Shown here in pieces: positions 17,624 through 40,802 of a stretch of 64,000 nt of DNA. The position numbers and the translations under genes were made by a program. The notes under the pieces were generated by a model. It was not told the origin of the DNA. It saw only the letters and a program-made list of their open reading frames with translations, and searched no databases. The number at the start of each line of letters is the position of its first letter. The stretch's first letter is position 1. The stretch is from Diacronema lutheri (lineage: Eukaryota > Haptophyta > Pavlovophyceae > Pavlovales > Pavlovaceae): assembly GCA_019448385.1 (NCBI GenBank), contig JAGTXO010000021.1, positions 248,001 through 312,000 on the forward strand. Direction: 5' to 3'.

Positions 17624-17656
<33 letters not shown>

Positions 17657-19226: not shown

Positions 19227-19349
19227 TCGGAGCATGGCGGCTCGACAGCATGGCGCCTCGACAGCATGGCGTCGTCCAGCGTCACGCCGCGTCGTGGTCC
19301 TGCCGCTCCTCCGTGGCGCACGGATGGCGCTCCTCCGTGACGCAGCCGA

Positions 19350-21467
19350 ACGACGCCGCGGCGTCACGGCCCGGGCGCAGTCGCCATCCTGGACGCCACG
19401 GATGGCGAACCGGTCGACGAGATCCGGCACGAGGACGTCTGCGCCATCGCCACGCAGCTCGACTGCGTCTACACGGGGCTCACGGGCTCGATGTTTGGCA
19501 CCAAGTGGAACGTGTGCGGGGTCATGCTCCCGAAGCGCGCCGAGCAGCGGCCGCAGCCCGGCTCGGACGCCTTCGCCTCGTACAGCGTGGCCGCCTGGGC
19601 CGACACGTTCGACTCCACGGGGCTGTACGTGCCCGACGAGCGCGAGCGCGCGGCGGCGCTCGCGGCGGTGGCCGGTCTGCGCACGGCGCGCGCGCCGGCC
19701 GGGCCGGGCGGGCGCGAGCTCGCGCGCGCGCAGGGCTACGATCGCGCCGAGCAGGCTGCGAGCGCGGCGGCGGCGCGCGCGGCGATGGCCGAGACCGGCC
19801 AGCAGCGCGCGCTCCACGGCGCGGTCGTCGACTCGGCGCTGCGCGGCGTGGGCGACCGGCTGCACTTTTGCGACGCGCCGGGCGGCACGGGCAAGACGTT
19901 CGTCGAGCGCGCCATCATCGCCGCCGTGCGCGCGGATGGGCACGCGGTCGTCGTGTGCGCGTCCTCGGGCGTCGCCGCCACGCTGCTGCCCGACGGCCGC
20001 ACCTTCCACTCGACCTTCAAGGTGCCCGTCGGCGCCGACTCGGACGGGCAAGCCGTTCAATGGCGTGCCGCGCTCCGAGCGCGGGCGCTCCGTGGCCGCC
20101 GCGGCGAATGATCGTGGGGGACGAGGCGCCGATGCAGAAGCGGGGCCGCCTCGACTCGCTCGATCGGTGTTTGCGCGACGTGACGGGCGTCGACGAGCGC
20201 TTCGGCGGCAAGACGTTGCTGCTCGCCGGCGACTTTTGCCAGTGCTTGCCGGTGGTGCGGCGCGGCTCGCGCGCGCAGATCGTGCGCTCCTGCCTCGAGT
20301 ACTCGGCATCGTGGCAGCACGATCGGCCGTACGCCTTGGTCGAGAACTCTCGCGCCTCGAACGCGGCGCGCGACACGGGCGACGCGCTCGGCGCGGGCGA
20401 GTGGGCGAAGCTGCCGCGCAGCCTCGGCGACGGCGCCTTTCCCGCGGCGGTGCCGCCTGCGGGGGCCATGCCCGGCGCATTCCCGCTCGATCCCGTGCAG
20501 CTGCCCGAGGCGTCTCGGCCTACCCGGCGGAGCTCGTAGCCACTCGCCTCCTCTCGCTCGGCGAGGGGCTGTGCAGCGGCACGCGGCTGGTCGTGCGCGG
20601 CGTGCGCGCCGGCGGCCGGCTGCTCGAGTGCGCGCGCCCCGGCGCGGCCGCCGGGCGCGACAGCACCGTGCTCATCGCGCGCATCGACCACCACTCGCCC
20701 GACGAGGGCACGTTCGCGTTTGCATGGCTGCACCGCCAGTTCCCGGTGCGGCCGGCGTAACAAGGCGCAGGGTCAAGCGCTCGGGTGCGCGGGCGTGTGG
20801 CTCGCCGAGCCGTGCTTCACGCACGGCCAGCTCTACGTGGCCGCTTCGCGCGTCGGGCACGCGTCGCGCATCCGCTTTGCGCTTGGCCCGGACCATGTGA
20901 CGCGCACCGTCGTCTTCAAAGAGGTGCTCCGCGCGGTCAGCGGTGGCGAGGCGGCGGCGGCGGCGGCGGCATTCGCCGCGGCCGCCGTCGCCGCCGCGCG
21001 CGAATGCGCGGCGGCGGCGCGCGGTGGCGGCGGGCGCGGCGGGCGCGGCTCGGACGGCGCGCGCGGCGCCGGCGGCGGGCGGCGCGCTGGCGGCGGGCGC
21101 GACGCCGGCGCGCGGTGCTGCCCAGCACCCGCCGGCGCGACGCCCGTCGCGCCGCTCGCGGCCGACACGCAGCCGGCGGGTGCTCGCCAACACCGCGCGC
21201 CGCGCGACTGGCCCGCGTACCTGCGCGCCCTTCTAGGGCGCGCAGGGCGGCGCCAATGCGGCCGGCAAGCAGGGGCCTCAAGCCGGCGCGCTGCCCGACG
21301 CCGCGTGGGTCGCCGCCGCGCGCGTGCCGTCGGCGCTGCCGCCGTCCGGCGTCGCGCTCGCGCCGCTGCCGCAACCTCAGCCGCCGCCGCCGCCGCCGCC
21401 TGCCGGCAAGCAGGGCAAGCGCGCAGCGGCGGCGACGGCGGTGCGCGGCCCGGCGAGCAAGCGGTAG
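19350..21467 (+). pseudogene. Pif1/Helitron-type helicase relic
   Basis: Segments of a superfamily 1B helicase occur in order but in different frames: ILDATDGEPVDEIRHEDVCA (about 19390); Walker A FCDAPGGTGKTF (about 19870) with VVCASSGVAATLLPDGRTFH; Walker B IVGDEAPMQKRG (about 20110); FGGKTLLLAGDFCQCLPVV (about 20205); GLCSGTRLVVRG (about 20570); FPVRPA (about 20740); and NKAQGQALGCAGVWLA with HGQLYVAASRV (to 20850). The pattern, ending in a QLYVAxSRV motif, is that of Helitron/Pif1 helicases. Frames change near 20050, 20107, 20510 and 20757, with codons missing at the last, so the gene is broken. A Gly/Ala-rich tail ends at a stop near 21467. No Rep nuclease was found. Confidence 0.7.
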
Positions 21468-22630
21468 CGGTGCCGCCGAGCCGGGGGCGGGCTCCGTGGG
21501 CGACGCGGCTTGGCCCGCCACTCGCACCACTCGCGCCGGGCGCGCACAACGCGCCGTGGTCCGCTGCGTGGCCGAGCGAAAATGCGGTCCTGGCACGCCA
21601 TGCGGGAGAGGCCGTACAGCGCGTGAGCTTGGGCCCGTGATTTATTACTCATGGATTTATTACTCATGCCATGGCGTCGCGCCACGATTACGCCCGTGGC
21701 CCCGGCCGCCAGCCTCGCGCCGCTACGCCGTGTCGTCGCGGCCGGCGCACACAGCGAACTGTGTGTCCGCGGCACATGCCCGGCTGCTCGCGAGCTGCAA
21801 GCTTGCCGAACTGCTCGCGCTAAAATGGCGCGTTGCGGGCGTGCCCGCGCACCGCGCGTATGTTCCGCGCGTTCCAGGCGCGCCGCGCCGCGCGCCGAAG
21901 CGGCGCGCGGCGCACGTGCGGCCGCGAGCCGAAGAGGGGCCGGCGCGACCGGCCGCGAGGCAGACGCAGACGCTCGGCGTGCCGGTCGACGCGTCGTCCA
22001 AATCCGCGTCGGGCGGATGCGCGCCTAGGCCGGCGCTGCGTGCAATCGGCGCGGGTCGCCGCCGCATGACGAAGCATGCTTCCATCCGGTGCTCGGCCAC
22101 GCGCTCGGGCGTAACGTTCGCGCCTGTTCGGCCGAGGCGCACTCGCCGTCCCCTCGCGCCGGCAATGCGCGTGCGTGCCAGCACGCCGGCAGCGGAGGAT
22201 GCCACGGCAGCGGCGAGCGGGTCCCCGCCGGTGTGCCGCTCGGCGCCCCGTCACGCGCAACGCGCGCGCCGCCCGCTGAACGCGCACAATTGCCTGGGCA
22301 AGATCGTCCCGCGCTCACGCCGCCGTCGCATCGTTCCATGCATGGCGCCCGGCTCGTCCGTACCGCTTTCGGGCAGTGCCGCGACGCCCTTTTTCAAAGG
22401 CGGGTGCCGCGCTGATTCGTCATCGGCCACCATCCATCTGGCCCTCTAAAGCCGGTTTGCGCGTGGGCGCCCGTCCGGTGCGAGAAGCGGCTCGCGTCCT
22501 CGCGCGGGGCGCCTCCGCGCCAGGCGCCCGGCGCGCGCTCGTCTTGCCGCGCCACCACGCTGATCTGCGCCCAACCCTCGCTCGCCTATTCCCCCGTCGT
22601 TTCTGCTGCGTAGCCCGCAACAGCGCGCGC
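21468..22630. other. Gap with no recognised gene; one perfect tandem 15-mer
   Basis: GATTTATTACTCATG is repeated back to back at 21639-21668, the only AT-rich spot here. The rest is GC-rich with no family-like protein in any frame. It could hold the promoter or a missed 5' exon of the giant polyprotein gene: the context at 22858-22860 (GCGCAG then GC) could be a splice acceptor. Confidence 0.5.
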
Positions 22631-25600
22631 ATGACGCGTGCACGGCGCAGCGCCTGGAGCAACTTCCGAGTCGTCGGCCGGCAGCCTGTGGGGGGCGCGT
22701 TCATCGGCCCGATGTGGCCGGTGAGAGTGCCCGACGTGCCGCGTGGTGAGCGCCTGCACGGCTCGCCGGGTTCGGCGCGTTCCCAGTCGGCCTCTCTCCG
22801 ACCCGCCGTAAACCTTGCGTGCGCACCCCGCACACCCGGCGCTGCGCGGCGCGGCGCAGGCGTGAAAAACGAGGGCAACGCGTGCTACGTGAACGCCCTT
22901 GCGCAATCGCTCGTCGCCTTGAACGTGCTCCGTCCGATGCCCCGCTCCGCTTCGCGCCGTGCGGGAAGAGTCGAGAAGGCGCTTTTTCGGGACTTTGGCA
23001 CGCTGCTCGAGGACACCGAGGCGCCGGCACAGCTGTGTCTTGTGTCCGTCGTCGACGTCATCTTGGGCCGTGGCACGCGAGGGACGCAGCAGGACGCTGC
23101 TGAGTTCTTCCAGATGCTACTCGGCCGAGTGCCCGGGCTCGCTGCTGCCTTCGAAGACGACAGACGCGTAGTGCTCGAGCCGATCGCTGTGGCCTCGAGC
23201 GAGCGCGGTGAGGGCATCGCCATCCTCGTCAGCATTGGCGGCGATGCGGCGCGCACGCTCGCACACGCTCTGGGGGGCGTCGCTGGGCCGCCGCAGGGTG
23301 GCAGCCCGGACGCGTGCCGCTCGGACGTGCTCATGCCAGCCAGCATTGCCGTCGAGGTGCCGCGCACGACGCGCGGCAATGGCTCGCAGTGCAAGAACAA
23401 GCACGCGTTCGTGTGCGCGCCGCGGCTGCTACTCGGCGGGCGCGACTACCTCCTCGTCGCCGCCGTCGTGCACTTGGGCGAGGAGTCGACGAGCGGGCAC
23501 CTTGTCGCCATCGTGCTCCGCAACGGGGCTTGGTTTCTGTGCGACGACGACAACGTGCGGCGGCGCGCACGGCCGCTTGGCGCCGCGACCGGCGGTTGAT
23601 CGCAGCCGCAGCCGCCCCGTCCTCCCGCGCGGCACGCGCGCGTGGCCTGAAAGCTCGCGCCGCGCGCCTGCCGCACGCACGCGCGTTGCCCGCGCAGATG
23701 CACAACTTGTCTCAGTCCGACGCGCTGGCGTGGGCAAGTGGTGCGAGCATGCTCTTCTACAGCCGGCTCGACGCGGAACCGTTGGACCCGGCGCTGGGCT
23801 CAGCGTCACCGCCGTCGGCCGCATCGCCTGCGTGGCCGAGCTCGGCGCCCGACGCGCCGACCCTGTCGGCAGCCTGGTCGCGGGTGCGGCAGATGGCAGC
23901 GGTGCCAACAGATGCGACGATCGGCATCGCGGAGACGGCTGCAGACACCTCTGCGGCGGCGATCGGCCCAGCTGCGTGCGAGGCCCGCCAAGTTGTCTCC
24001 GCGACGCGCGCATTGCCAATGGCGGTGAGTGCCTCGCACGCGCACGCCGTCCGCTGTCCACAGCGTGGCGCCCGGCGCTTGCGTTCGCGCCAGGTAAAGT
24101 TTGCGCGTATAGCGTGCAGCACCCTCACGCATCCCCTACGCCTCCCGCCCGCCCGACCTCTTGCCCGCCGGCCGCGCGCAGGACCAGCGCACGCCAATTG
24201 TTGGGCGCGGCCAAATCTGGGCATGCGCAAATTTTGAGCCGGCAGCGGAGGGCGGGGATGCGCAGCACAACTGGCGCAAGCGCACGTGGTGCCCGCAGCA
24301 CGAGCAGCGCGAGCAGCGCGAGCAGCGCGAGCAGCGCGAGCAGCGCGAGCAGCGCGAGCAGCGCGAGCAGCGCGAGCAGCGCGTGCAGCGCGTGCAGCGC
24401 GAGCAGCGCGAGCAGCGCGAGCAGCCCTGGCAGCCAGCGCGGCCAGGCCTCGGCGCGGGCGCTGGCGTTCGGCCCGCTGCTCTGCCGCCGAGCCATCCGC
24501 GCGCCAGCATGCGCGCGAGCAACCGCTTCGAGCCGCTCTTGTTGGCCGAGGCGGACGTGCCCGCCACCGAGCCCGCCGCCGCCCAGCCCGCCGCCCAGCC
24601 CGCCGCCGAGCCCGCCGCCAAGCCAGCCGCTGCCAAGCCCACCGCCGAGCCCGCCGCCCAGTCCACGGCCCAGCCTCCCACCGTGCCTGACGCCAAGCCA
24701 GCCGACCAGCCCGCCGTCAAATGCGCTGCCGCCAAGCGCGCTGACGACCGCATTGCTGCCGCTGAGGTAGGCGCCGTCGCCGCCACGCTTGCCGCCGCCA
24801 CCGAGCCTGGCGGCGTTGCCGAGCTCGCCGCCGCCGCCGACGAGGGCTGCAGGGCGCGTGCCGACGCGCTCGCCAAGCGCGAGACCCGCCGCGCGCTCCA
24901 CCGCGAGCAGCTTTTTCGCGAGGACAAGCGCGCGGCCGGCCGCCTGATCGAGCAGTGCGCGCTGGGCTCTGCGGACGATGCAGCGCGCGCGCGCGCCCTG
25001 CTCGAGCGCGTCAAGGCGCGTGGCCACGCGCTGCCTCCGCACCTGCTGCGGTCGCTGCGCGACCTCGCGTCGCCGCGGCTCGCGCTCGCCGCTGAGGCGG
25101 CGGGCGTGCTCGCCGCGTCCGAGATGGGCGAGGCGGACGCACCTGCGGAGGCGCGCGCGCTACTCATGCACGCCGAGGCCGTGGGCGCCCACCTGCCCGC
25201 GCACACAGAGCTCGCGCTGCGCCGCGCCTGCATCCCCACCGCCGAGCAGGCGGAGCTGCTCGCGACTGCGCGCGAGCTGCTCGCGCCGCGCGACCCCGAA
25301 GGCTCGGTGGCTCCGGCGGGCGCGCGTGCCGAGTGCGACGGCGCCGCGCTCGGCACTCGCGCGCGCGAGCTCCTCTCGCGACTCGACGAGGCGCACCTCG
25401 ACGTGCAGCCCTGCATTGCGCGGCAACTGCGCCGGCTCGCCGCCACCGAGCCAGACGCAAGTTCGAGCGCTGCGCTCGCCGCCACGCCCGGCACCGCCGG
25501 TCGCGCGGCCGCCGAGCCGCGGCGCGCGTGGCGCCCGCGCGGGTGGCGTCTCGCGGTAGGCGCAAAGGGTGCGCGCGCGCGCGCGCGCGCCGCGGCTGCT

Positions 25601-27474
25601 CCGCTCGACACGGCGCCGCCCGCGGCGGCCGGCGCCGTCCCGCCGCTCGAGCCGCAGCCCGAGCGCCGTGCAGCCGACGCCGCGGCCGCCGCAGCGGCGC
25701 CGGCGGCCGGCGACGACGGCGTGGCACGCGCGCTCGCAGCCGCAGCGCGCGGCGACGGCCTCGACGGCGTCGATGGCGCCGACGACCTCGTTTGCGCGCC
25801 GTGCGACCGAGGCTGCGCGCACGCACGCGACGGCGGCTGCTGCGAGCCTGCCGCGCGCAGCTCGCCCGACCAGTGCCCGCGCGCACCGCCGCGGCGCGCA
25901 CGGCGGGCGGCAAAGCGCGCGCGCGACCGGCTGCGGAGATCAATCGACAGGTCAGAGCGGGCTGTCGGCCGCCGATTGCGTGGCGGCGACGCGCGCCGCG
26001 AGCGCAAGCGCAGGTGCGCGACGGGCGGCCAGCACGCACCGCAGCCGCTCCGCCGCGCGAGTCGCAGCCCGCCGTCGCGCACCGATCGGCCCTCGGCCGA
26101 GCATGCCGCCGAGCCTGCCGCCGAGCCCGACAGCCCCCACCGCCGCCCGTGTGCCGGTGCCGCCGTCGCCGTCGCCACTGTCCGGTGCGCCGTCGGCATC
26201 TTCGCGAGTGTCGTCGCCGCCTCTGCCGTCCGGGCCGCCATTGCTCCGGCCGCTCGCCCGTCTGCAGCCACCGCCTTTTGGCTCGTCGCCGTGTGCTCGG
26301 CCGCCGCATGGGCCGCCTTCGCCTCCGCCGCCCGCCCGACCGCCGCCTTGGCCGCGCCGCAGCCTGCCACGCAATCGTCGGCCGCCGAGCCCACCGCCGC
26401 CGCGCCAGCCCCCGCCCAGCCCGCCGCTGCCGAGCCAGCCGCTGCCCAGCCCGCCGCGGCCGAGCCCGCCGTGGCGCAGCGCGACGTCCAGTCCGCCGCC
26501 CCGGCGCTGCTCGCGTGGGCGGGCGACGCGGCTGCGCTCCGGCTGGCCGATGCCGCCGCGCGCGCCGGCATCCCGCAGGCAGAGGTGGACTGCATTGCGG
26601 GCGGCGACATGCTCGCCTCCACTGTGGACGCTTGCTGCGAGGTCGTGCTGCGCGTGCACGGGCAGGCCGGCGAAGGGCGCGTCTGCCACGTACCGCTTGC
26701 CGCTCAGCCCGCGGTGTTCCAGGACGGCGCCGAGCGCGCCGCGCTGCTGCACCGCCTGCACAGCGAGGCGACGACGCAGGCGGTCATCGGCATGTGGAGC
26801 CCGCCGGGCGGGCGCGGCGGTGCGGGCAGTGACGATGGCACGCCGCCCGCCTCCGGCCATTTCACCGCGTTGCGCCTCGTGCGCGTCGCGCGCGCGGGCG
26901 AGCATCGCTACGACGCGGTGCTTGTCGACACGCTCGCGTCGCCGAGCAGGCAGGCGCTCAAGCGTGCCAGGTCGATAACCGCCACGCTGCACGCGGCGGG
27001 CCTCGACGTCTTGCCCGTGCGCCGCGCGCGGCTGCTCGACAACGCGGCGCAGCGTGGCGCGACGTGCGGCCTCGCCGTGGTGGGCGCGCTCAACGACGCC
27101 GCGCTCGCTGCGGCGGGCGGTGCATCCGCGCCGCGCACGTTCAGCGTGGCGGACATGTACGCTGTTGGCGAGCACCTCCGCGTCGCGTTGACTGGCGCGG
27201 TCAGCGGGCGTGCGCCGAGCGGCGCCTGCGCCGGGGCGGGCGCGGTGCGCGGCGGGGGCAGCCGCGATCGCGCTGCCGAAGCGCCGCGGCAGACGCGCGG
27301 CGCCAAGGCCGCCGCAGACGCCGCCGCCGCTGCCGCCGTTCCGCCGCCGCCGCCACCTCCGCCGCCCGCGCTGGGCGCCGCCGCCGCCACCACCACCGCC
27401 GCTGCCGCTGCTGCCGCCGCCGTGGCCGCGCCGCCACCGCCGCCACCGCCGCCGCGTGCCGGCGACGAGGGCGA

Positions 27475-27517
<43 letters not shown>

Positions 27518-30500
27518 GCCGCGCGCACGTTCTTGAAGCTCGCGCCCAGGGCGCGCGCGGCCGCCTCGGCGCGTGAGGCGTTGCGCGCCGCGTGTGCGCG
27601 CGCGGACGCGGCGGCGTCGTCACACGCGTCGGCGCCGCACGCGCCCGCCGGTGCGCGCCGCCGGCGGCGCGCGGGCGCAGGCGAGCTGGCGCTCGCGGCT
27701 GCGCGCGCGCTCGCCTCGACGGAGCACGGCGATTTGACGGACGACGCGCTCGAGGCCGCCGTCGAGCAGGAGCTGGGCGACGAGCGCGGCCAACTGCTGC
27801 TGTGCACGCGGGGCGCAGCGGCGCAAAGGCCCGCGCTTTGCCGGCTCCTGAAGCACGCGTGCGCGTCGGCGCGCGCGGCGAAGCGCGCGCAATTCACGGT
27901 GTTCGTCGTGCGCGCGGCCACGCGCGGCGAGCGGGGGGGCGCCGCCGCGAGGCGCGTGGACTCGGTGGTCGAGCTGTCGTGCGCGCTGCACGAAAAGGCG
28001 GGCGCGCTCGGCGGCCTCCAGAGCGTCTGTGTGCGTGGCTTCGCCCTCGAGCGCCGCCGGACACTCGACGGTGGCGCCGAGGCCGGCGCGTCCGCCATCG
28101 GCCAGGACGAGCAGGTCGAGGCAGAGGCGGGCGAGGCGTGCGTCGCCGGCGTGACGATGGCCAAGCAGCTGCGTCAGTTTGCCGAGCAAGCTGCCCGCGA
28201 CGACGTGCTCTTCCGCGTCGCCGTGTCCGAGGCCGACGCCCACGCCCGGCTGGCGCGCGTTGCGGGTGACGATGTCGGCGCGTACAGCGTCGTGCTCGCA
28301 GTCGCCGGGCTCGTCTGGCTGGCCAAGGCCGACGAGGTTGCGCCGGCGGCCGCCCGGTCCGCCGCCGCGCCGCCCGCCGCCCCGCCTGCTGCCGCCACGT
28401 CCGCCGACGCCGAGCGCGACGCCTCGCCTTCCGACCGCCTGCGCGCGCTGACGCTCGCCGTGCGAGTCGCGCTCGCGCGCGGCGTGCTGCGCCACCTCCT
28501 CGCCGACGCGTCGCCGGGCGCGTCCGCGACCGCTGGCGGTAGTTGCGCGACGCCCGTCGAGGCGGCCACGTCCGCCGCCGCGCCGCCCGCCACGGGCGTC
28601 GTGACGAGTGGCGTCGCGGCGGGCGCTGTGGCGGCCGCACCGGCTGCTGCGGGCGGTGCGACGGCGGGTGCATCGCCCATCACGCGGCCGGCGAAGCGCG
28701 CGCGGCGCACGCTCACCGCCGCTCCAGCCGCCTCGGCCGTTGCGGCCGCTGGAGGCGCACGCGCGGGCGCACGCGGCGCGGCCGGCGCGCCTCGCGCGCG
28801 CGCCGCGCGCGCGCCGGCCGAGTACGTCTGGCTTGCCATCGCGCGCCGGATGCTGGCGGCGCGACACGCGGCGGCCGCGGGCGGCGACTTTGTCGCGTCG
28901 TGCGTCGCCGCGATGCAGGCCGAGTACGGCGACGGCTGTGCCGTCGTCGTCGGCGACGCGCCTGATGACGCCTTGGTCGAGGCTGCGGCGGCGGCGCTGC
29001 TCGAGGGCAAGCACGCGGCGGTGAGCCTCGGCTGCGTCGACCGGCCGGCGGTGCTCGTCGTGCAGCGCGCCGTGGACGCGCCCACGTCGCGCGTGCACGG
29101 GTGGTGCGCGCACGCGGCGGGCGCCGCCGAGTTTGACGAGGGCGCCGCGCACGGCGTGTTCAACGCGATCGTCGAGCGCGCGTGGGCGCTGCGTCCGGAC
29201 CCGGCTGACGGCAGCCCGCCGCCCACGCGCACGTGGGAGGTCGAGCAAATCGCTGGCGACGCGCCCGACCAGGCGGGCGTGGCCGCGCTGCGCGTGCTCT
29301 ACGCGCTCGTCGCGGCGCACGGCCGCTACCGCTCGGCCGCCGCGCTCTTTGGCGCGCTCGCGCAGCTGCACGCGCCCGACGCCGCCGGCGCGCGCGCGGA
29401 GGTCGTCGCGGCGGCGTGCGCGGTGCCGCACGGCGCGCGGCCGGGCGCCGCGCCGGCGGCCGCGCGGGACGACGCGAGGGAGCGCGCATGGGAGGGCGCT
29501 CAGATCGCCGCGCTCGCCGTCGGCGCGGACGCTGCGCGCAGGCGTGTCGCGCCCGTGCGCGCGCTCGTCGACGCGCTCGGCACGCCACCGACCTCGGCGA
29601 TCACGGGCGGGCCGGCGGTCCGGCTCGCGGGCGCGGGCGACGGCGGCCACGGTGCACGGTGGGTGGGCGGGCAGGCGGCGACGCCCGCCGAGCAGCTGCC
29701 GAGGGAGCTGCTGCGCGCCTACCACGAGGCGGTGCTGTGCGTCACGCCCGGCAGCCTCCAGCTCGGCCCGGCGGCGCTCGACGCGGTCACGCGGCCGCGC
29801 GAAAACGACACGCTGGAAGGCCTCCTCGCGCGCGTCAGCTGGCAGTGCGGCGCGAGGGCGAGCACGTGCGCCATGCTCGCCACGTTTTCCGAGCAGGCGG
29901 GCACCGGCTCGCGCGTCGCGCTCAAGGCCCTCCGCACGAGCTCCGACCTGGCCGGGCTGACGGCGGCTGCGGTCGGGCAGCAGGCGCCGCAGACGCCGCC
30001 GCCGCCGCTGCTCGTGATGCTCGGCCGCTGCCCCAGCCCGCTCGTCGGCGGCGGCCTCTTCCCGCCCGACCGCGCGACGGGCGAGCCGGCGGTGCACGCG
30101 GCGACGTCCGAGCTCGCCGTCGAGCTGCTGCGCGACGCGCGCGCGCTGGCCGGCACGGACGGGCGGCTCGTCGTGCTGTGCCTCGAGGCGTCCAACCCGC
30201 TCTGGTTCTGCCCCAAGGTGCGCGAGCTCGAGCTGCCGCGGACGCGGTCGGACGGCGTGCGCGCGTCCGGCTGCACCTGCCCTGCGACGTGCAGCGATGC
30301 GCGCGGCGCGGCGGGTGGCGCTGCCCGCGGCGCATCGACGCGGCCGGCGGCGCGCGCGATCAACAAGGCGGTGCTCGACCACTTCGTCGCGCTTTTCGGC
30401 CGCGAGGGCTTCGCGACCTTTGAGTTTGCGGGCGGCGGCGAGGCGAGCTGGCTGTGCGACAGCGCGGCCGGCACGACGACCGTCGCGGCGTGCGCGTCGC

Positions 30501-33500
30501 TGCCGCCGCGCATGGGCGATGGGCAGCTGGCCATCCGGCGGCACACGCTCGGCACGGGCGCCGACGCGCCGGCGCACGCCGTCGTCTCGCTCCGCGTCGC
30601 GCACGTGAGCCACGCCATCCGCCGCGCGGCGGACGACGGCGGCGCGCGCGCCGAGCGGATGGCGCGCGCCGCGCGCGCGTTTTGCGATGTGGCGGCCGCG
30701 CTGCGCGTCGACGCGATCCTGGCGGAGGTGCCCGAGGACCGCCCGACGGGCACGCCCTTCCTTGGCGGGCTGCTCGAGTTTTGGAACAAACGCCACGGGA
30801 GCTCGACGGCGCCAGCCACGCTCGCGCTCGGAGACGTGCGCGAGGTGGCCAAGCGGACGGCCGACGCAGCGGCCGGCCGAGCGGACGAGGTCCCTGCGGC
30901 TGGCCGTCCGCAGGTCGCGGCGCGCGCGTGCGCTGGCGCGATTGGCGGCGGCGCGGGCGCGGCGGGCGCCTCGGACGCTGCGCCCCGTGCACTGGCGGGC
31001 GCGTCGGGTGCGCGCACGGACGGCGGCCCTGCCGACGCACCGCGCCAGCTGGAGAGCCGCTACGGCGAGGCGAGCAAGCTCGACCTACCCCAAGATTCCA
31101 CTACGGGCTGCGTCCTCGACGCTCGCGAGGCCCAGGACCGCGCGCGCGTGCCTGCTGCGCCCGACGGCACAGCGCTGCGCCGCGTGCTCGACGCCGTCGG
31201 CGCGGGCGCGCCCGCGCAGCGCAGCCCGCGCTGGCACGACGAGCGATGGGAGGAGGTCACGGGCAGCAAGGTTGGCGACGTCGTGAACGACAACGCCGGC
31301 GTCGCGCACGAGACGCTCACCGACGAGTACGTGCACCGGCGGCGGCGCGAGGTGCGGACCAAGGCGACGACCGCGGGCATCCTCGGCGAGGCCGTCGCGC
31401 TGCGCAAGCTGGCGGCCGCGTACGGCATCACCGTCGTGTGCAACCTGCCGATGGTGCGTGCGGACCCGCACGACAAGAGCGCGCCGTTCGCCTTCTCGCC
31501 GGACGGGCTCGCCATCCTCCCCGAAGACAACGAGCAGGTCCTCGTCGAGGTGAAGACGCTCACCAAGGCGGACGCCAAGGCGCACGAGGACGGGCCGCCG
31601 CAGCCGCACCGCGATCAGCTGCAGCTCGGCATGCACGTCCTCGGCGTGCGCAAAGCGCTCTACGTGCAGTACCTCAGGCACGAGGACCGGATCGTCGTGC
31701 ACGTCGTGACGCGCGGCGTCGGCTGGCTTGCATTCGCGCAGCCGAGGGTGCAGGCCTTCTGGGCGCGCGTCGTCGAGCGGCGCGCGCGGCTCGAGCGCGC
31801 GCGCGCCGACCACCCGGCTGCGAGCCGGCGGCACCGGCGGCAGCAGACGCCGGCCGGGCCGCCGCTCGTGCTCGCGCTGGACGGGCGCATCCCCGCCGCG
31901 CGCGCCGCCGCGCTGCACGCCGTCGCGCACGGCACCGCGAGCGCGGCGGCGGTGACGGCGGCGGCGGCGACGGGCGACGCGACGGCGTTGCAAGACGCGA
32001 TCGCGGCGCTGCGCGCGCCCGTCGGCAATGCGGCGATCGACAGCGCAGCGCGTGCGGAGGGCGCGGCCGTCGAGCGGGCGATCGCGTACCTCGGGCAGCC
32101 GGCGGGCGACGCCGCCGCCCGCGGCACGGCCGAGGCGGCCGAGGAGGAGAGGACGGTCGACGCCGACATCTGCGCGTTGCTGCACCAGCTCGGCGCGAGC
32201 GTGGCGCACGTGCACGTCGAGGACGCGGATTGCGTCACGCGTGAGCACTGGGGCGAGGCGGTGCTCGCTGCAGCGGACGACCCGTCGAGCGCCCCCGCCA
32301 TTTCGAGCGTCATCGTCGCGCACATCGTGCGCCTCGCCGGCTTTGGCGTCGAGCTCCCGCAGTCGATTCGCGTCGCCCCCAGCACGGCCGACTGGCACGA
32401 GGGCTGGCTCGACGTGCAGTGCGTGCTGCTGCGCACGCGCCGGCGCGGGCGGCGCGACGACGACTTTGTGGCCGTCGTCAGGCGCGGTGGGCGCTGGTTT
32501 GCGTGCGAGCCCGGCCGCGCGCGGCGGCTGCAGTGGCGGTCGGTCCTACGCCGCGCGCGCGGCGGCGTCGACGGGACCGGCGAGGAGGCGTTCGCGATCG
32601 TCTACGTGCGGCGCGGCGACGCGGCCGGCGACGCGGCTGGCGACGCGCAGGCCGCACGGGCGCGCGGCGGGCGCGCGCGCAGGCGCACGCGCGGCGGCAC
32701 GCGCAAGCGCAAGCGCGGCGCCTCCGCCGGGCTCGAGGCGGCCGCGCCCGCCGGCGCGCCGGCTGCCGCGCCCGCCGGCGCGCCGGCGGGCGCTGCTCAC
32801 CGCCCGCCCGCCATGCGCGCCACGGTCGCCGCGCGCACCACGCGCTCTGTGACCGACGCGCTGCACTCGGCGCCTGCCGCCACGGTTGCACCTGTCTTCG
32901 ACTGGCGCGCCGGCCGCCCGCCCCCCGCCGCTCGAGCCCGCCACCCGCGGCCGCGTGGGCGCGCGCCACCGGGCAAGGCCTGGGACAGCGTCTCGGGTGC
33001 GTGGGCGGACAAGCCGACTGGTGCTGCCGTCGCCGCCGCGCCGCCGCCGCTGCCGCCCGCCGCCGCGCCGCCGCCCGCCGCCGCGCCGCCGCCCGCCGTC
33101 GCGCCGCCGCCCGCCGCCGCGCCGCCGCCCGCCGCCGCGCCGCCGCCGCCGCCGCCACCGGCGGCGCTCGGCCGCCGGCAGCACGTCGGCGCGGGCGGCA
33201 GCGCGGCGGGCCGGCGGCTCGCGGCCATCGCACGGCGGCAGCGCGGCGTGCGCGCGCCGCCGCCCGCCGCGCGCTTCCTCGCCACGCTGCCGCCACCGCC
33301 ACGCGACGGCCTCGCGCGCACGAGCAAGCAGGCGCGCGCGAGGCGCAACGCGGACGGACGGCCGGCGCACGCGCGCGCGGCCAACGCGCGCGCCTTCTAC
33401 CGCGGCGTGGAGCTCGGCGTGCACGCGACGCGCGCCATCGTCGACGCGCGCCACGCCGACCTGCCGCAGGCCGTCTTCGTGGCGGAGGCGCGGGCGATCG

Positions 33501-36500
33501 TCGCGCGCTCCGCCGGCGGCGGCGCGCTGCTCGCGCCGGACGACGTGCGCGACCTGTGCGACGCGCAGACGGACGCCGATCGCGCTGCGATCTGGGCGTC
33601 GGTGGGCGCGCACGAGGCGACGCGCATCTTCGCGCTCGTCACGCGCAACGCGAGCTTGGCGGGCGCGGCGCTGCTCGTGCTGCACACGCCGGCGGGCGCG
33701 CCGGCGCGCGCGCTCGGGCTCGTGGCGACGCGCTCGCGCGCGCCGTCGACGGGCGCGCCGCGCGACGCGCACAGGGCGCTGGTGCAGCGGTTGGACGTGC
33801 TGATGGACGCGATCGCCGCGGCGCGAGGCGCGTCGCCGCTCGAGCTCGAGCTCGCGCTCGCGCCCGAGCCGCAGAGCGCGTGCAACGCGCGTGCGGCCGC
33901 GCTGCTCTGCCTGCAGGCCGTCGCGGACGCGAGCGGCCGTCCCGCCGCTGAGGACGCGCTGGCCGCGCTCGACGACGCGCGCGGCATCGACCGGCACTGC
34001 CACGCCGTCCGGCAGCAGATCGAGGCGAAGCTCGCGTGGCGGCGCGCCGACGGCGCCGTCGGCGTTGACGGCGCCGACGGCGCGCCCGCGCTCGCGCCTG
34101 CCGCCGCACCGCCGGCGTGCGCGCCGGCGCACGCTGCCGGCGAGGCGGCGGTCGACCAGGCGATCGTCACGCGGGTGCGCGACGCGCTGCGCGCGTGGGC
34201 GACGACTGGCACCGCGCCCAGCGCGGCGGTGCTCGACGACGCCTGCGCCGCGTACACGGCGCGCGCACGCGCGCGCAAGGACGCGCGCACGGCGCTGGGC
34301 CCGACGCGCGCGGCCGAGCTGCTCGCCGCGGCCGCGCGCGGCGGAGCCGACGGGGCGGATGCCGCGCGCGCGCTGCTCGGCGGCACGCCGCGCCTGCTCG
34401 TCGTGCTCCTCTGCGTGCCCGTCGCCGCGCCGTCCGGCGAGCCGCCGCGCCCGGTCGGGCTGCTCGTCGCCGACCGGCCGACGGACGACTCGCGCCCGGC
34501 CGCGCTCGTGCGCTACGACTTTGCGCCGCTCGACGCGGACGTGGCCGTCGCGGTCGGCGCGCATGCCGTCGCGCTGGCCAGTGCGATCTGGCCGCTGCTC
34601 GCGGCCGAGGGGGAGCCGCGGCCATCGCCCGTCGTGCGCTCGCAGCCGCGCGGCGGCGACGATGGCGCGCGTGCGCTCGCAACGTTCGCGTGCCTCGACG
34701 CGCTGATGACCGCCAGCGTCGGCGCGCACGGCCTCGCGGGCGGCGCGGGCATGCTGCCCGCGCTGGTCGCGCGAGGCGCCGCGGCCGCCCAGCGCGAGCG
34801 GCAGCTGCGCGCGGCCGCCGAGAGGCTGGGCGGCACGGTCGCTGGGTGGCCGGACACGGGCGCGAGCGCGGCGGGCGCGAGCGTCGACGAGGAGGCGCGC
34901 ACGTACGAGGTCGAGGCGGTCGTCGACGAGCGCCGCAAGGCGGGCAAGAAGGTGACGTTCCAGTTCCGGATCAGGTGGCGGGGCTACGACGAGAGCGCCG
35001 ACACGTGGGAGCCTGAGGCCAACGTGAGCAGCGACCTCGTCGCCCAGTTCCGCAAGACGCGCGACGAGCAGAAGCGGCGCGCGGGCGTATCGGGCAGCGG
35101 CAGCGGCGGCGCGGGCGCGGCGTCGGCATTGGCGTCGGCGCCGCTTCGCGCGCACGGCGAGTCGGGCGCCGCGGGCAAGCGCGCCGCGGCGGGTGCCGCC
35201 GCGAGCGCGCGCGACGCCGCGGGCGCGCGCGCGCCGAGCGTTCCCCGCGCGCGCGGCGTCGAGCGCGCGCGCGTGGACGAGCCCGCTGCGCCGAGCGCGC
35301 GCGCCGCCGGCGGCGCGACGGCGCGCACGCGCGTCAGCGTGCTCCCGGGCTTCGTGGTCAAGCGCTCGACGCTCAACGCGGGGCCGCAGGCGGTGACGGC
35401 GCAGCCCGGTGCGCGGAAGGAGCTGCGGCGCATCGCGGCGGCCGTGCACAGGCTCACGACACAGGCGTACCGCGTCATCAACAAGGTGGTGCGCGACGAG
35501 GCTGCGGTGGCGAGCGCGCAGGCCGTCGGCGCGGCGTCGGGCGGCCCGTCGACCAGCGTGCACACGTCGACCACGATGGACAAGGGAACCGTCCGTGCGA
35601 TCTTCTCGGCCATCGGCTGGCACAAGGACGAGAGCACGTACGGTGCAGCGCCCCGAGGCAAGCCCGCCGAGCAAGCCGCCGCGCAGACCAAGGCGGCGAC
35701 GGCGCGCGCCGTCGGCGAGATGGCCGAGGGCGTCCAGCCCGTCTGCGCGGTGGGCCTCACGGAGATCCTCGAGGCGGAGGCGACGCAGGTGTCCACCGCG
35801 TGCCTGATGCATCCATCGCGCGTCGTGAACGGGCTGCTCCGCGACGTCGTCCGCGCGGCAGTCGAGCGCGACGAGGCGCTCGTCGCGCTGCCCGAGATGC
35901 AGCGAAACGCGCGCGTGCGCGAGCTGTGCGAGCGGCTGCTGCGCGGCGACGTGGAGGGCGCGCGCGTCGGCTGCCCCGCCGCGCTCGACCGCCACCTGCC
36001 CGACATGGTCCTCCACAAGATCGACTACAAGTGCACGCCCACGAAAAGGTGGAACTACGACCGGCACACGACGCGCTACTTCCTCGTGCAGATCCGCACC
36101 CTGCAGCACGTGGCCGAGGGGCAGGCGCTGCTCTGCCGGCTCGCGCACATCCACACGCAGCTGACCGGACGGCCGCCGCGGTACAATGTGGCGCCGCTGC
36201 GCACGCACAATGTGCGCGCGAGGCGTGGCTGCCGCTGCCGCCGCCGAGGGCCCAAGCGCGCGCGCGCCGCCGCCGTGCGCGCCGCCCCGCGGCCAGGTTG
36301 GTCACGCGCCCGCGCGCTCGCGCGCCGCGCGCTGCGCGCAGGTGCCGCGCAACGTGCGCTTCGCCGCGAGCGCCATCTGGGTGACGCTTTCGGATGACGA
36401 GCGCAAGGAGCTGCGCGCGCGGCTCAAGGCGCTGGACCTGCGCGACCACGATGGCGAGCCGATCAAGTGGACAGGCACAAACGGCAACACCCCGCCGATG

Positions 36501-38066
36501 TCGGACGTGCGCGTCAGGTACGCGGTCTTTGCGACGCGCTTCGACATCTCCAACCGCGTCTTCGACTACGCCGGGCGCGAGCGGCCGCCGGCCGATCTGC
36601 CGTGGCACGCGCGGCGCTCGTGGGTTGGCCTCGCGCCGCTGCCGCGCGTGCCGCTCCCGGGCCGGCAGCCCGTCAAGTCGGTGGTGACAGATGGCGTCGC
36701 CGTGCACGCCGTCGGGACCGTCCTCGTGCCGAAGGCGCAGGCGCCGGCCGGCGGCTCGGGCGTCCTGCACCGCTGGCGCCGGCCGGACGGGCGCATCGCC
36801 GTCGCGCTCGGCTCCGAGCTGCGGCGGGCGATCGACGTCGAGGCGGCGGTCGTCGTCGCGGCCGACCCGAACATGGGCAACATCACCACCTACTCTGCGC
36901 ACGTCGGGCGGGCGGCCGTCTGGCGGCAGTTCACGCAGCGCGCGCGCGCGCGCGCCGCGGGCTTTGCGCGCGAGACGGCCAAGACCAACGCGGCGCGGCG
37001 GCGCGTGCGCAAGGACGGGCGCGGCGAGGAGTTCAGCGTGGAGGCGGACGAGGCGCGGCTTGGCGAGGCGCACAGCGCCAAGGTGCTCGGCGAGGGCGAG
37101 TTCCACGCCTTCCACCGCGAGAGCGCGCGGGTGCGCGAGCGCGCCGCCGAGCACGTGTACGACGCGCCGGCGCGCCGGAAGGAGCGCTGGCGGCGCGACA
37201 GCGGCGGGCGGTCCAACGCGGCGCGCGTCGCCGAGGCGCTCATCGCGGCGCACTGTGTCGACGGCGTGACGCGCGACCGGCTGCTCGTGTGCGTGGGCAA
37301 GTGGCTGCGCGACCACAAGGGCGCGCAGCCCAAGGGCGCGCCGCCCGCCTTCCAGGTGGGGCTGCTGCGCGAGCTGCGGCGGCGCGGCGTCGCGGCCGTC
37401 TTCGTGCCCGAGCCGTACACGTCGATGCACTGCTCGATGCCGCGGCTCGCCAAGGGCGGCAGGCTGCAGCGCTGCGGCGCGGAGCTCGCGCAGAACCCGC
37501 GCCTGCCCGTGGCAAAGGGCGGCACGCGCACGGTGCACGCGCTCGTCATCTGCCCGGCGTGCAACGGCGGCAAGAAGCCCGTGCACCGCGACTACAACGC
37601 CGCGCGCAACATCTTCTACGACGTGCACGACATGGCGGCGCACGCGGCCGGGCGCGACACCACGTCGACGCCTGAGCGCTTTGCCCTCGTGCTCGCCTGG
37701 TGGGCGCGCGGCGAGGTGTGGGAGCGTGAGGAGCGCATGGTGCACGGCGAGGGCGACGACTGCGACGACGAGTGCGACGGCGACGACGAGGGCGACGACG
37801 AGGGCGACGACGACGACGACGACGATGGCAGCGGCGACGGCGGCGGCGGCGAGGGCGACGGCGACGGCGACGGCGACGGAGGCGGCGGCGGCGACGACGA
37901 CGATGACGGCGGGGGAGGCGGCGGCGGCGACGGCGGTGGCGACGACGGCGGCGGGCGCGGCGGCGGTGGCGGCGGCGGCTCTCGCGCCCGCACCCCCGCC
38001 CGCGGAGCTGCCAGCGCCAGTGCCGGCGGCGGCAGCGCGCGCGGGCCGAAGCGCGGCCGGCGTTGA
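22631..38066 (+). CDS. Giant polyprotein: USP - C48-like protease - PD-(D/E)XK nuclease - chromodomain - Fanzor
   Basis: Exons 22631-23554, 23698-24093, 24182-36211 and 36342-38066 join through three phase-0 GT-AG introns (the second has a strong CAG|GTAAAG donor and a pyrimidine-rich acceptor) into about 5,024 residues. In order: USP-like domain (Cys85, His290); REQ repeats (481-522) and Ala/Pro-rich linkers; Ulp1/C48-like module (His1333, Asp1356, Gln1397, Cys1402); related modules that lack some of these residues; YqaJ-like nuclease (Glu2843, Asp2881, Glu2896-x-Lys2898); polyproline; chromodomain (4015-4063); Fanzor nuclease (about 4160-4900) with Asp4625, Glu4807, Asp4867; acidic/Gly tail. 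The exact start is uncertain (22631 is the first ATG of the frame; 22712 is possible). I infer a mobile-element or domesticated polyprotein; whether it is cleaved, or made as separate proteins, is unknown. Confidence 0.65.
22860..23800 (+). other. Ubiquitin-specific protease (C19)-like domain
   Basis: First domain of the giant gene. The Cys box is VKNEGNACYVNALAQSL (Cys codon 22883), followed by GTQQDAAEFFQMLLGRVPGL. The His box is GHLVAIVLRNGAWFLCDDDN (His codon 23498). After a 143-bp intron the closing strand ALAWASGASMLFYSRLD matches the usual A-Y-x-L-F-Y end of USPs. The finger region is very short, so this is a minimal USP fold. Catalytic Cys and His and a following Asp are present, so activity is plausible. 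Confidence 0.75.
24300..24425 (+). repeat. 9-bp tandem repeat encoding Arg-Glu-Gln
   Basis: About fourteen copies of GAGCAGCGC, two with GTG variants, in the frame of the giant gene. The product is a highly charged helix-forming linker. Confidence 0.9.
26500..27230 (+). other. Ulp1/C48-like cysteine protease module (candidate)
   Basis: Within the giant frame: SGHFTALRLV (His codon 26858), AVLVDTLASPS (Asp codon 26927) and AAQRGATCGLAVVGAL (Gln 27050, Cys 27065). The order His-Asp-Gln-Cys with Gln five residues before Cys is that of the SUMO/adenain-type protease clan, which processes ubiquitin-like proteins or polyproteins. Overall similarity is low, so the assignment rests on the motif pattern and spacing. 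Confidence 0.45.
31240..31820 (+). other. YqaJ/lambda-exonuclease-like PD-(D/E)XK nuclease domain
   Basis: Residues in order within the giant frame: GILGEAVALRKLAAAYG (Glu codon 31388), FAFSPDGLAI (Asp 31502), QVLVEVKTLTK (Glu 31547, Lys 31553), then HRDQLQLGMHVLGVRKALYV. This is the E...D...ExK...Q pattern of YqaJ/lambda exonucleases, which resect DNA ends or serve in recombination. All catalytic positions are present. Confidence 0.7.
34895..35060 (+). other. Chromodomain
   Basis: TYEVEAVVDERRKAGKK, VTFQFRIRWRGYDESADTWE and PEANVSSDLVAQF form a complete chromodomain: the aromatic cage positions Tyr (YEVE), Trp (RWRGY) and Tyr/Trp (DTWEP) are kept. Such domains bind methylated histone H3 tails and steer chromoviral integrases to heterochromatin. 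Here it directly precedes the Fanzor part. Confidence 0.85.
35335..38066 (+). other. Fanzor (eukaryotic TnpB-like RNA-guided nuclease) domain
   Basis: C-terminal part of the giant gene, split by the intron 36212-36341. The N-terminal half has KELRRIAAAVHRLTTQAYRV, KIDYKCTPTKRWNYDRHTTR and RYNVAPLRTHN. RuvC I is VAADPNMGNITTYSA (Asp codon 36864), RuvC II is VFVPEPYTSMHCSM (Glu codon 37410), RuvC III is VHRDYNAARNIFYDVH (Asp codon 37590). A zinc site lies between II and III: Cys at 37431 and 37473, then CPAC at 37551 and 37560. All catalytic and zinc residues are present with no stop, so the nuclease looks functional. The last 110 residues are an acidic Asp/Gly tail, then basic. Family members use a guide RNA made from the element's own end to cut matching DNA. 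Confidence 0.85.
37741..37975 (+). repeat. GAC/GGC trinucleotide-rich coding tract
   Basis: Encodes the Asp/Glu/Gly tail after the Fanzor nuclease core (GDDEGDDE and GGGGDGGG types). Probably flexible and fast-evolving. Confidence 0.85.
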
Positions 38067-38470
38067 CGCACGGCCGAGCCGCGCAGCGGTCGACGCTTTG
38101 CGGGCTCTGCCCAGGTCGCGCGCGGCTGGCGACGCGTGCCGCGCGCGGCACGACCGTGCACGCCGCCACCCGTGGCCGAGCGCGCCGCACCAGCCAGCCC
38201 GCTCCAACCGCCGTGCGGATCACGGACGCTCGCTACGGCTCGTCGGCGCGCGTCACCTGCGCCGGCGGCCACGGCGCCGTCTGCTCCGGCCTCGTCGCGA
38301 GCAGCCCGACCGCTGCTCGCCGCCCGCACGCCGCCGCAGCAACGCTGCGCGTCGTGCTCCCCCGCTCGCCAAACGCGAAGAGCTCCCTCACAAGGACGTC
38401 CTTCCGAACGGCCCGCGCTGCACTCGGGGCGCGATCGTGCCCCTGATCGGATTTGGCTTGACCATCTATA
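38067..38470. other. Gap after the Fanzor stop; candidate site for guide RNA and element end
   Basis: These 404 bases lie between the Fanzor stop and the stop of the convergent TIR-like/LRR gene. No protein is recognised. In Fanzor and TnpB loci the guide RNA usually overlaps the 3' end of the nuclease gene and reaches the element's right end, so both would be expected here. I see no clear terminal inverted repeat. Confidence 0.35.
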
Positions 38471-40802
38471 CTAAAGGTTCACACGCTCGAGCGCCGACTT
38501 GTCGGGCGGCTCGTACGCGGCATTGAGCACAGCCTCCTTGGCCTCCTCGTCCAACGCGTTCTCCCTGCACACGCGGAGAGCGCGGAGCGCGCGTGAGCGC
38601 ACAGACAGCATGGGGCGAGCGCGTCGGGCGGAAGGTGCAGCCGTGCACATGCCCAGCCAGCGACGGCCGCGTGCGCGCTCCGCCGCGCCCGCGCCGCCGC
38701 GCGCACGAGAGGTCGAGGTGCAGCAGAGTGCGCTGGCCCTGCAGCGCGGCGGCGATGGCGCGGGCGCCCGCGCTCCCGAGCGCGTTGCGCTTCACGCTGA
38801 GCGTCGTCAGCGATGCGCTCGCGCGCAGCGCGCCGGCGAGCGCGCGCGCGCCGTCCGCGCCGACCGCGTTGCCCTCGAGGTCGAGCGTGCGCACGCTCGC
38901 GCCGTTGGCGCTTGCAGCGTCGGCGAGCGCGACCACCTCCGCGTCGCCCAACGGGCGGGGCTGGCAGTGCCGCAATTGCACGTGCAGCAGCTGGCCGGAG
39001 CGCACGAGCGCGCCGACGCGCTCGGCGAGCTCCGCTGGGAGGCCGTCGAGGCGCAGATCGGCGAGCGTGGCGGGCAGCGCGCGCGCGAGCGCGCGCGCTC
39101 CGTCCGCCGAGGTGGCGCCGTGCGCGCGCGCCAGGCTGACGCTCAGCTTGCGCAAGCATGAGAGCTCGAGATCTGCGAGCGCGTGGCGCACTTTGGCCGT
39201 AGCGTCGACAGCAACGGAACGCTCGGCTGTGCGCGCGCCGGCGTCTGGAACGTCACCGTCAGCAACGCGCGCCGGCGCGGGCGTAGACTGTTGCGGCTGC
39301 TGCTGCGCGGGCTCCGCGGGCAAAGCGCGCGCGAGCAGCTCGCCCAAGTCGAGTGCGGAGAAGCGCACACGGAGCGTTGCCTCAAGCTGCGCCCCCTCAT
39401 CGCCGATCGCATGCACGATGGCCGCGAGGTCTGCAGGCTCGGACGCTTCCGCGCGCTCGAGGGCAAAGCGCTGCGAGTGGGCGATCAGCTCGCGCGGGAA
39501 AGGCGCCTCGCGCCGCGCCTTGTTCTGCGAGAAGAAGAAGTCGCGCTCGGCAAAGCCGTCGAGCAGGCAGACCGCTGGCACCTGCGATTTTCAGATTTCG
39601 GCGGATTTCGAGGGGTGTGGCAGGGACAGCGCCGCATGGACATCAATGATGGGCCGAGATTGATGTTGAGTGGGGCGCACGCCGTGTGCCATGGGGGGCG
39701 ATGACGGCGACGGCGAAGGCAGAGGCCACGAAGGGGCGGGCAGCGACGCCGAGCGCGCGCGCGCCGGCGCGCACACCACGCTGCCACGCCGATCGGTGAG
39801 CCATGGCGTCGCCGTCGCAATGTCGTGCAAGAACGCAGGCCTCGAATCGACAAGGCTCTTGTACAGCTCAAGCAGACACCAGGCCCTTTGAAAGTAGGTG
39901 CCGGTGCGATCGAGCACCGACACGGCGCCGTCTGCGAGGAGGAGCGCGCGCTCAAACGGCGAGGCGCCGATGCCGCCGCGCAGCTCCGCGCCCAGGTCCC
40001 ACTGCCGTAGCGCGTACGCGCACACCTGCGACACAGCGGGCGCACGCGCACGCGCCGCATGGGCGGCGTAAGGGCGGTCGGCTTGCAGCCTTGACTTGTG
40101 GTATATACGACCCCTACGGGGCGTGCGTGCGTGCGCGCGCACCCAAAAGTTAGTCGTCTCCTCGGGCAGCGCGCGGTCCTTGAGCAGCCGCTCGAGGCAT
40201 GCGATGAAGTCGCCGACCGGCTCGCCCCACCAATGGCTGACGAAAAGGCGTGGGGGCTGCGGGCGCGCCGCGACTAGCTCGGCGGCCGAGCAGTTGGCGC
40301 GCTCGGTCGCGGGCTTGATGAGGTGCGCGACGAGGTCGTACAGATTGAGGCCCGCGGCCGTGACGCGATCGCCCGTCACCGCCGACGTCCATCCCTCCGC
40401 CGCGCACAGTTCGCGCGCGAGGGCGTAGATGGCACGCAGCTGGGGCACCGTGACCCCACGCGCGGCAGTCTCGTGCACCCAGCAGCCAACGGGCCCGGCG
40501 AGGAGGAGGGCCGCGTATTTGGAACTCGTGCTGGGTGGAGGCGCGGGCGTGCTGTCGGACGACGGCAAGGGCGGCGTGCCCGCGCCGTTCGCGTGCCACG
40601 CGGCCACCGCGGCGCGCCACGTCCGCCACGCGGCCGCGTCGCTGCCCTCGGCAGGCGGCGGCGAAGCCGCGATGAAGTCGCGCACGCGCGCGACAGGCAC
40701 GTTTTCGTCATCGACGAGACCGCGGACCGCCGCGGCAAAGCGGTTGGGCTGCGGCTGCTCCGTCGCCGGCCGTCGCGGCGGCGGCGCGCAGGCCGCACCC
40801 AT
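38471..40802 (-). CDS. TIR-like (SHWW) domain plus leucine-rich-repeat protein
   Basis: Four exons on the minus strand, 40802-40143, 40025-39777, 39581-38707 and 38564-38471, with GT-AG borders and matching phases, give about 625 residues. The N-terminal half has PRLFVSHWWGEPVGDFIACL, then, across intron 1, NFWVCAYALRQWDLG, SPFERALLLADGAVSVLD and QRAWCLLELYKSL: a TIR-like fold seen in many algal proteins, with a conserved R-x-WC-x-x-E. The C-terminal half has ribonuclease-inhibitor-type repeats: VRTLDLEGNAVGADGARALA, LTTLSVKRNALGSAGARAIA and LLHLDLSENALDEEAKEAVL. The architecture recalls NLR-type sensors without an NTPase; an immune role is a guess. Its start is 42 bp from a divergent gene. 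Confidence 0.75.

Follow-up and report, generated by a model that had tools for sequence, protein, structure and literature searches.

How does an RNA-guided nuclease come to stand at the end of a predicted protein of several thousand residues, and what kind of element carries it? This question is raised by a locus of the haptophyte Diacronema lutheri. The window analysed here is a stretch of 64,000 nt (contig JAGTXO010000021.1, positions 248,001 to 312,000 of the forward strand), and all positions refer to it. For 22631-38066, a first-pass annotation had described a polyprotein of about 5,000 residues and more than 15 kb, in which a USP-like protease, a C48-like protease, a PD-(D/E)XK exonuclease, a chromodomain and an intact Fanzor nuclease are linked by exons that join in phase across GT-AG introns. 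We find that the locus is one copy of a young, high-copy and recently mobile repeat family of D. lutheri. Its polyprotein is predicted to comprise 3,901 + 574 = 4,475 residues, given a start at the first Met and a single candidate intron, and it ends in the Fanzor.

The Fanzor assignment is carried by profile and motif. The zinc-ribbon profile of Fanzor, TnpB and Cas12f (TNB, PF07282) matches 37374-37613 with an E value of 2e-6 and 28.3 bits against a cut-off of 26.3. The signature described for Fanzors by Bao and Jurka reads D-X(125,275)-[TS][TS]xx-[C4 zinc finger]-X(5,50)-RD (PMC3627910). In the C-terminal exon it is found as D234, 184 residues, TS..C, Cys 423, 437, 463 and 466, and RD at 475-476. 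The acidic RuvC residues are also in place; the first-pass annotation had called the nuclease intact. A sequence search of the PDB with this exon yielded three matches at chance level, the second of which is a Cas12f1 chain (E 0.2). Continuity is the only basis on which the N-terminal half of the Fanzor, from the chromodomain to the intron, is assigned; when 34904-36211 was scanned against Pfam, the chromodomain alone was returned. The chromodomain, which had likewise been recognized before, lies in the same open frame and matches PF00385 with an E value of 4.9e-12 and 46 bits against a cut-off of 25.1 (E 3.7e-13 in a narrower scan). Its PDB sequence matches are chains of CDYL (best, E 7e-9), HP1 and CBX proteins.

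A single frame is open from stop to stop between 24113 and 36397 (4,094 codons), with its first Met at residue 133 (nt 24509). The GC content across the window is 67-81%, and antisense frames of 1,154 and 1,251 codons are present in the same region. As long frames are cheap in a GC-rich genome, codon usage was scored for the giant frame. Log-odds were trained on two host genes of the window, proline dehydrogenase/aldehyde dehydrogenase (9143-12304) and a DEAD_2 helicase (56453-59926), and calculated over 600-nt intervals. The giant frame scored highest in 16 of the 20 intervals between 24105 and 36104, with values like those of the host genes. An antisense frame was best in the other four (starts 24105, 25905, 27105 and 32505), where simple repeats occur. 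Over 36105-37904, the coding signal shifts to frame 0, the frame of the Fanzor. No stop interrupts the 3,333 codons of this frame in the sister copy L044, against 25 and 16 stops in its other two forward frames. Furthermore, 150 of 260 candidates from a chromodomain search were scored. After removal of the top four rows (higher scores, other frames), the remaining 146 were taken collectively, not one by one, as copies of the element because their scores are nearly equal; the copy in the window is not among them. Of these 146 copies, 102 have an open frame of 4,000 codons or more and 44 a shorter one. Lengths of the 102 long frames are 4,080-4,120 codons (12 copies), 4,185-4,260 (6), 4,470-4,525 (60), 4,575-4,620 (9) and other values (15). 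A frame open by chance is ruled out by codon usage, by the stops in the other forward frames and by these 102 copies.

The candidate intron was picked among 32 in-phase candidate joints for the look of its splice sites, and all 19 loci whose alignment spans 34.9-38.5 kb contain it. The giant frame of the earlier description holds, and across this candidate joint it would continue into a second exon ending at 38066, but the predicted protein is nearer 4,475 than 5,000 residues and the ubiquitin protease lies in an ORF of its own. A UCH domain is encoded upstream (PF00443, E 7.3e-15), and its Cys and His boxes align with USP chains in a PDB sequence search (best USP46, E 1.8e-5). Its ORF stops at 23599, just past the His box, and no clear coding signal is seen in 23505-24104. 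In a 31-kb form of the element, about 3.4 kb lie between this ORF and the next coding stretch. At least 60 in-phase GT/GC-AG joints would lead from the UCH ORF into the giant frame, as chance offers in such sequence. One protein from UCH to Fanzor is not supported, given the separate stop, the gap without clear coding signal and the 3.4-kb distance in the longer form. The protease is encoded by a neighbouring ORF, which may still be joined to the giant frame by splicing.

Over most of its length, the polyprotein is without Pfam match. The exonuclease claimed before does lie in the giant frame as a candidate of the YqaJ type (PF09588, E 0.016 and 15.9 bits, below the cut-off of 22; the alignment covers 2-146 of 150). 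In L044, the E value is 0.013. The C48-like protease candidate has no Pfam match, and the assignment relies on the order H...D...Q....CG, so that a SUMO protease is unproven. Between the two forms of the element, this region is 82% identical and keeps H127, D150, Q191 and C196 (alignment numbering). AlphaFold modelling of slices, which the first-pass annotation had suggested, was done for these two regions and yielded uninterpretable models with pLDDT values of 38.1 (YqaJ-like) and 42.6 (C48-like). An internal duplication of protease domains was considered and not used: the sole match of a segment-versus-segment search is weak (E 9.1e-5) and joins Pro/Ala-rich stretches.

The element was delimited by comparison of its copies. 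The 20 loci read are the best 20 of 94 scored Fanzor matches. In 18 of them, similarity stops at 38471 (± about 1 base) with unrelated flanks beyond, and the remaining two run into contig ends; in L010, one alignment extends 19 nt past 38471. Nineteen of the 20 align over 3.57-3.60 kb with 99.4-99.97% identity, and one rearranged locus aligns over 2.1 kb. The Fanzor exon is 99-100% identical in 94 of 94 scored genomic copies, of which 93 are without stops and one has an internal stop. The 5' boundary at 16905-16906 is seen in L032, L037 and L045. Genome-wide, the exact 5' terminal pattern was found at 76 sites and the exact 3' pattern at 202, and reversed controls gave none. A C precedes the 5' TATATA in 58 of 76 cases and follows the 3' TATA in 194 of 202. 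The published assembly of D. lutheri NIVA-4/92 has 43.503 Mb in 103 contigs and 73.25% GC; 22.9% of the genome is called repetitive, and words beginning with 'transpos' do not occur in the main text of that paper (PMC8379373). Contigs such as C1, C12, C13, C26 and C32 terminate at or just within the 3' end of the element. This means that the family may limit assembly contiguity. In the window, a leucine-rich-repeat ORF on the minus strand (38466-39590) abuts the 3' end, and the insertion may be near the end of that gene. Table 1 lists the features.

Table 1. Features of the Fanzor-bearing element in the D. lutheri window.
Feature	Position	Strand	Remarks
Whole mobile element	16905..38471	+	21,567 bp; shared by copies at unrelated sites, which diverge beyond both ends
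5' terminus CTATATAGGGCGCGGTCCGGGC	16905..16926	+	Terminal pattern TATATAGGGCGCGGTCCGGGCT found 76 times, preceded by C in 58
Internal inverted repeat	18904..19224	.	Arms 18904-18992 and 19136-19224; 89 nt, 97% complementary, 143 nt apart
PIF1-type helicase relic	19800..20443	+	PF05970; frame 0, then frame 2
UCH/USP-type ubiquitin protease ORF	22631..23599	+	322 codons from Met at 22631; separate from the giant ORF
Giant polyprotein exon	24509..36211	+	3,901 codons from the first Met of the frame; codon usage; kept open in copies
C48/ULP1-like cysteine protease candidate	26573..27217	+	Order of H, D, Q and CG motifs only
YqaJ-type (lambda-exonuclease-like) PD-(D/E)XK nuclease candidate	31232..31639	+	PF09588; SPDG...VEVK motif
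Chromodomain	34904..35056	+	PF00385; same open frame as the N-terminal half of the Fanzor
Candidate intron GTGCGC...GCGCAG	36212..36341	+	130 nt; in-phase joint where the coding frame changes
Fanzor C-terminal exon	36342..38066	+	RuvC D (36864), E (37410), D (37590); zinc finger; acidic/Gly tail
3' non-coding end, candidate omega-RNA scaffold	38067..38471	+	By position only: Fanzor stop to element end
3' terminus GGATTTGGCTTGACCATCTATAC	38449..38471	+	Terminal pattern GGATTTGGCTTGACCATCTATA found 202 times, followed by C in 194

The element occurs in several size forms. For 100 of the 202 3' ends, a partner was sought within 45 kb among 88 known 5' ends, a lower bound obtained by merging the 76 exact ones with those from a looser DNA search. 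Thirty-six were paired, nine at 21.46-21.59 kb, four at 26.2-26.3 kb, 14 at 30.99-31.07 kb and nine at other distances; the lengths thus cluster near 21.6, 26.3 and 31.0 kb. A copy on contig C27 (L037, L047 and L018) has the form of the window throughout. A copy on contig C29 (L045, L031, L044 and L021) is 31,074 bp long. It has in common with the window 16905-19282, 19405-24035 (short gaps, 84-96% identity) and 26391-38471, and about 10.2 kb replace 24036-26390. This alternative segment contains an extra coding frame of 1,345 codons without Pfam match (L031:4255-8289), in which protease-like and PD-(D/E)XK-like stretches were noticed by eye. More copies of the internal inverted repeat are located within the 31-kb form. 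Between 26391 and 34889, the two forms differ by 172 substitutions and nine indels. Five indels are multiples of three and the other four are two adjacent pairs that sum to 6 and 33 nt, so that the reading frame is kept between the forms.

For 64 of the 100 3' ends, no known 5' end was found. Some of these cases are false: in seven, a contig start is no more than 32 kb away; another three (C10, C34:612942 and C35:114251) point to a contig end less than 31 kb off; and the copy at C27:168000, counted as unpaired, is full-length with a variant 5' end. The upstream stretch (10-20 kb) was read for 15 of the 20 copies. It is without element sequence in L030, L035 and L043, and in L034 it matches the long form only. 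5'-incomplete copies exist, and their share is uncertain.

How, then, does the element move? Tentatively preferred, though we stop short of calling it probable, is a large DNA transposon that spreads by a Helitron-like replicative process, either by itself or driven in trans, and encodes one polyprotein ending in a Fanzor. Helitron-like copying is suggested because exact 3' ends outnumber 5' ends, no terminal inverted repeat was found and a PIF1 relic is located near the 5' end. Helitrons insert without target duplication, and none was seen at the five sites with both flanks, save for TATA at both ends, which may belong to element or target. The nearest precedent, which favours such a process, is the Helitron2 group of Chlamydomonas with Fanzor1: in CRe-1, CRe-2 and CRe-3, 3' ends are intact, 5' truncation is frequent, and full-length copies have no target site duplication (PMC3627910). 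An empty insertion site was sought with four joined-flank pairs, and no match extended more than 6 nt across a joint. On contig C2, the sequence next to the 5' end of the copy is itself a dispersed repeat, present at C2:68486-68605 and more than 20 other places.

Chromodomains bind methylated histone tails, Fanzors are DNA cutters guided by RNA, nucleases of the YqaJ/lambda type resect DNA ends, and USPs remove ubiquitin. From these families, a working order can be proposed, in which chromatin tethering would be followed by an RNA-guided cut at the empty or sister site, YqaJ-type resection and the making of a new copy. Tethering to marked chromatin would be the task of the chromodomain. The Fanzor, loaded with RNA of the 3' end of the element and guided by flanking host DNA, might cut empty or sister sites and so promote retention and spread, as TnpB does, while new copies would be made from the 3' end by the Helitron-like process. 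The proteases might free parts of the polyprotein or strip ubiquitin or SUMO. Of the earlier proposal of an RNA-guided mobile element that reads chromatin, the mobile element with a Fanzor in one open frame, behind a chromodomain and a YqaJ-like nuclease, is supported; RNA guidance and chromatin reading are suggested by the domain families.

Several results weigh against this reading. Pfam scans comprised the coding frames, a six-frame read-through of 16905-24200 and the forward frames of L031. Within this scope, no transposase, recombinase, Rep or reverse transcriptase was found at E values up to 1. The six-frame and L031 scans, which returned only PIF1, AAA_30, UCH and weak noise (DGF-1_N, DUF755), gave no Rep/HUH domain, unlike in Helitrons. 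The sole Helitron_like_N match of the genome lies elsewhere (C63:35738-36019, E 8.3e-23) and is a possible source of Rep in trans. Also unlike Helitrons, the element has a PIF1 gene that appears disrupted in both forms, with frames 0, 2, 1 and 2 in succession. PF05970 matches with E values of 1.4e-17 and 2.4e-22 in two frames (2.7e-23 in another scan), and by eye helicase-like motifs seem to run on as far as about 20880 in frames 1 and 2. At the first break, no GT-AG joint preserves the DEAPM box and one 56-nt GC-AG joint would; the region 19405-20511 has no indel compared to the 31-kb form. The motifs of the relic may resemble those of Helitron helicases. In addition, asymmetric inverted repeats as in Helitron2 are not above chance (the longest, 6 nt, was reached by 379 of 500 shuffles), and neither an A|T nor a TTTT preference was seen in 17 tabulated 3' flanks and the 5' flanks read. 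The excess of 3' ends may be partly apparent: a loose DNA search gave similar numbers of candidates for the 5' query (284) and the 3' query (279; 40 each scored), so part of it may be due to variant 5' ends. The fold of the last 150 nt of the element is not above chance (z -1.13), and inspection of five 5' flanks by eye revealed no shared motif next to the junction. Both results are neutral with regard to RNA guidance. As to selection, the codon-position substitutions in 26391-27890 are 44/40/58, with little third-position bias, and the UCH and PIF1 regions also have little bias. In the UCH frame (22551-23450), 18 synonymous face 67 non-synonymous codon changes. Amino-acid constraint is therefore not demonstrated, though the frame is kept; the copies may be too young or too mosaic to display it.

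A weaker but serious candidate is a cut-and-paste or recombinase-driven transposon, for instance a Crypton-like one, whose diverged tyrosine recombinase would be hidden in the large part of the polyprotein without Pfam match. Both ends carry TATA (5' C/G-TATA-TAGG, 3' CATC-TATA-C), and the protease-like region and the lack of a visible target duplication are Crypton-like as well. CryptonF and CryptonS have terminal direct repeats of 5-6 bp and some encode a C48 peptidase (PMC3212892), and Cryptons are among the transposases listed alongside Fanzor1 (PMC10711439). However, no recombinase profile matched at E values up to 1 in the scanned frames, where a distant homologue may have escaped, and a recombinase alone fails to explain 202 exact 3' ends versus 88 known 5' ends, if the excess is real. 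Nuclease, exonuclease and helicase families occur together in this element and no transposase was found in the scanned frames, which would also suit a scheme without transposase: a break made by the Fanzor, YqaJ-type resection and PIF1-type break-induced replication from the 3' end, where stalling would leave 5'-incomplete copies. We consider it unlikely, since neither form seems to have an unbroken PIF1 gene, a flank-guided Fanzor returns to its own site and leaves new sites unexplained, and the 5' junctions of the five sites have no motif in common by eye. To about the same degree improbable is a chromatin-choosing RNA-guided transposon, in which targets would be chosen or protected through chromatin: the chromodomain would take the polyprotein to marked nucleosomes, the YqaJ-type nuclease would resect the RNA-guided breaks, and the element would be replicated into them from its 3' end, again with no conventional transposase.

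Target-primed retrotransposition would account for the excess of exact 3' ends and the apparent 5' truncation, and a chromodomain inside a transposon polyprotein is known from chromoviruses (PMC6338049). This explanation is very unlikely: unlike in chromoviruses, no reverse transcriptase or integrase matched in the scanned frames and the ends read have no long terminal repeats; the 3' end is without poly(A) or simple tail, and the candidate intron is kept in the 19 loci mentioned above. The proposal of a domesticated host defence or genome-editing gene, also put forward in the first-pass annotation, could appeal to the catalytic residues and the open frame. It is hardly credible in view of 94 or more near-identical copies dispersed in the genome, 202 exact 3' ends and unrelated insertion sites; a repeat so numerous, uniform and recently mobile does not support domestication.

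Compared to known systems, the nuclease resembles Fanzor1 proteins such as SpuFz1 and those of CRe-1, CRe-2 and CRe-3 in motifs and place: the C-terminal RuvC D..E..D, the C4 zinc finger and the position at the 3' end of the element. Its first RuvC motif is D-P-N, like D383/N385 of SpuFz1 (PMC10432273). As in the Chlamydomonas Fanzor1 elements, which are 3'-intact and often 5'-truncated (PMC3627910), exact 3' ends prevail here. Unlike in Fanzor1 systems, the Fanzor here forms the C-terminal end of a protein predicted to have about 4,475 residues, after a chromodomain and a YqaJ-type nuclease candidate, and the element has 21-31 kb versus about 2.1 kb for SPu-1. No profile match to the serine recombinase TnpA was found in the scanned frames, in contrast to Fanzor2 in IS607 elements. 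With TnpB of IS607/IS605 it would share RNA-guided retention, which is presumed; it differs by the lack of a detected TnpA and by fusion within a eukaryotic multidomain protein. Relatives of the Fanzor exon and the YqaJ region were sought in viral contigs and none was confirmed. Fanzor-bearing transposons are known, and this polyprotein architecture and size were not met in the portions of the literature searched; among texts naming Fanzor with chromodomain or polyprotein, as far as they are accessible, no chromodomain-Fanzor fusion was found. The natural role of Fanzors is stated as unknown (PMC10432273). A culturable alga whose 43.5-Mb genome holds 202 or more exact 3' ends of the element offers a testable system for what a Fanzor does in transposition and for chromatin targeting of an RNA-guided nuclease. 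If confirmed, a natural chromodomain-nuclease fusion would be of interest to genome engineering.

Two further observations concern the genome and the window. A second, distinct Fanzor family is present in closely similar copies (L001-L008 on contigs C1, C4, C9, C11, C25 and C69), and rows of equal score have open frames of up to 1,779 codons. In the window, the host gene at 9143-12304 encodes proline dehydrogenase and aldehyde dehydrogenase fused in one frame, similar to PutA.

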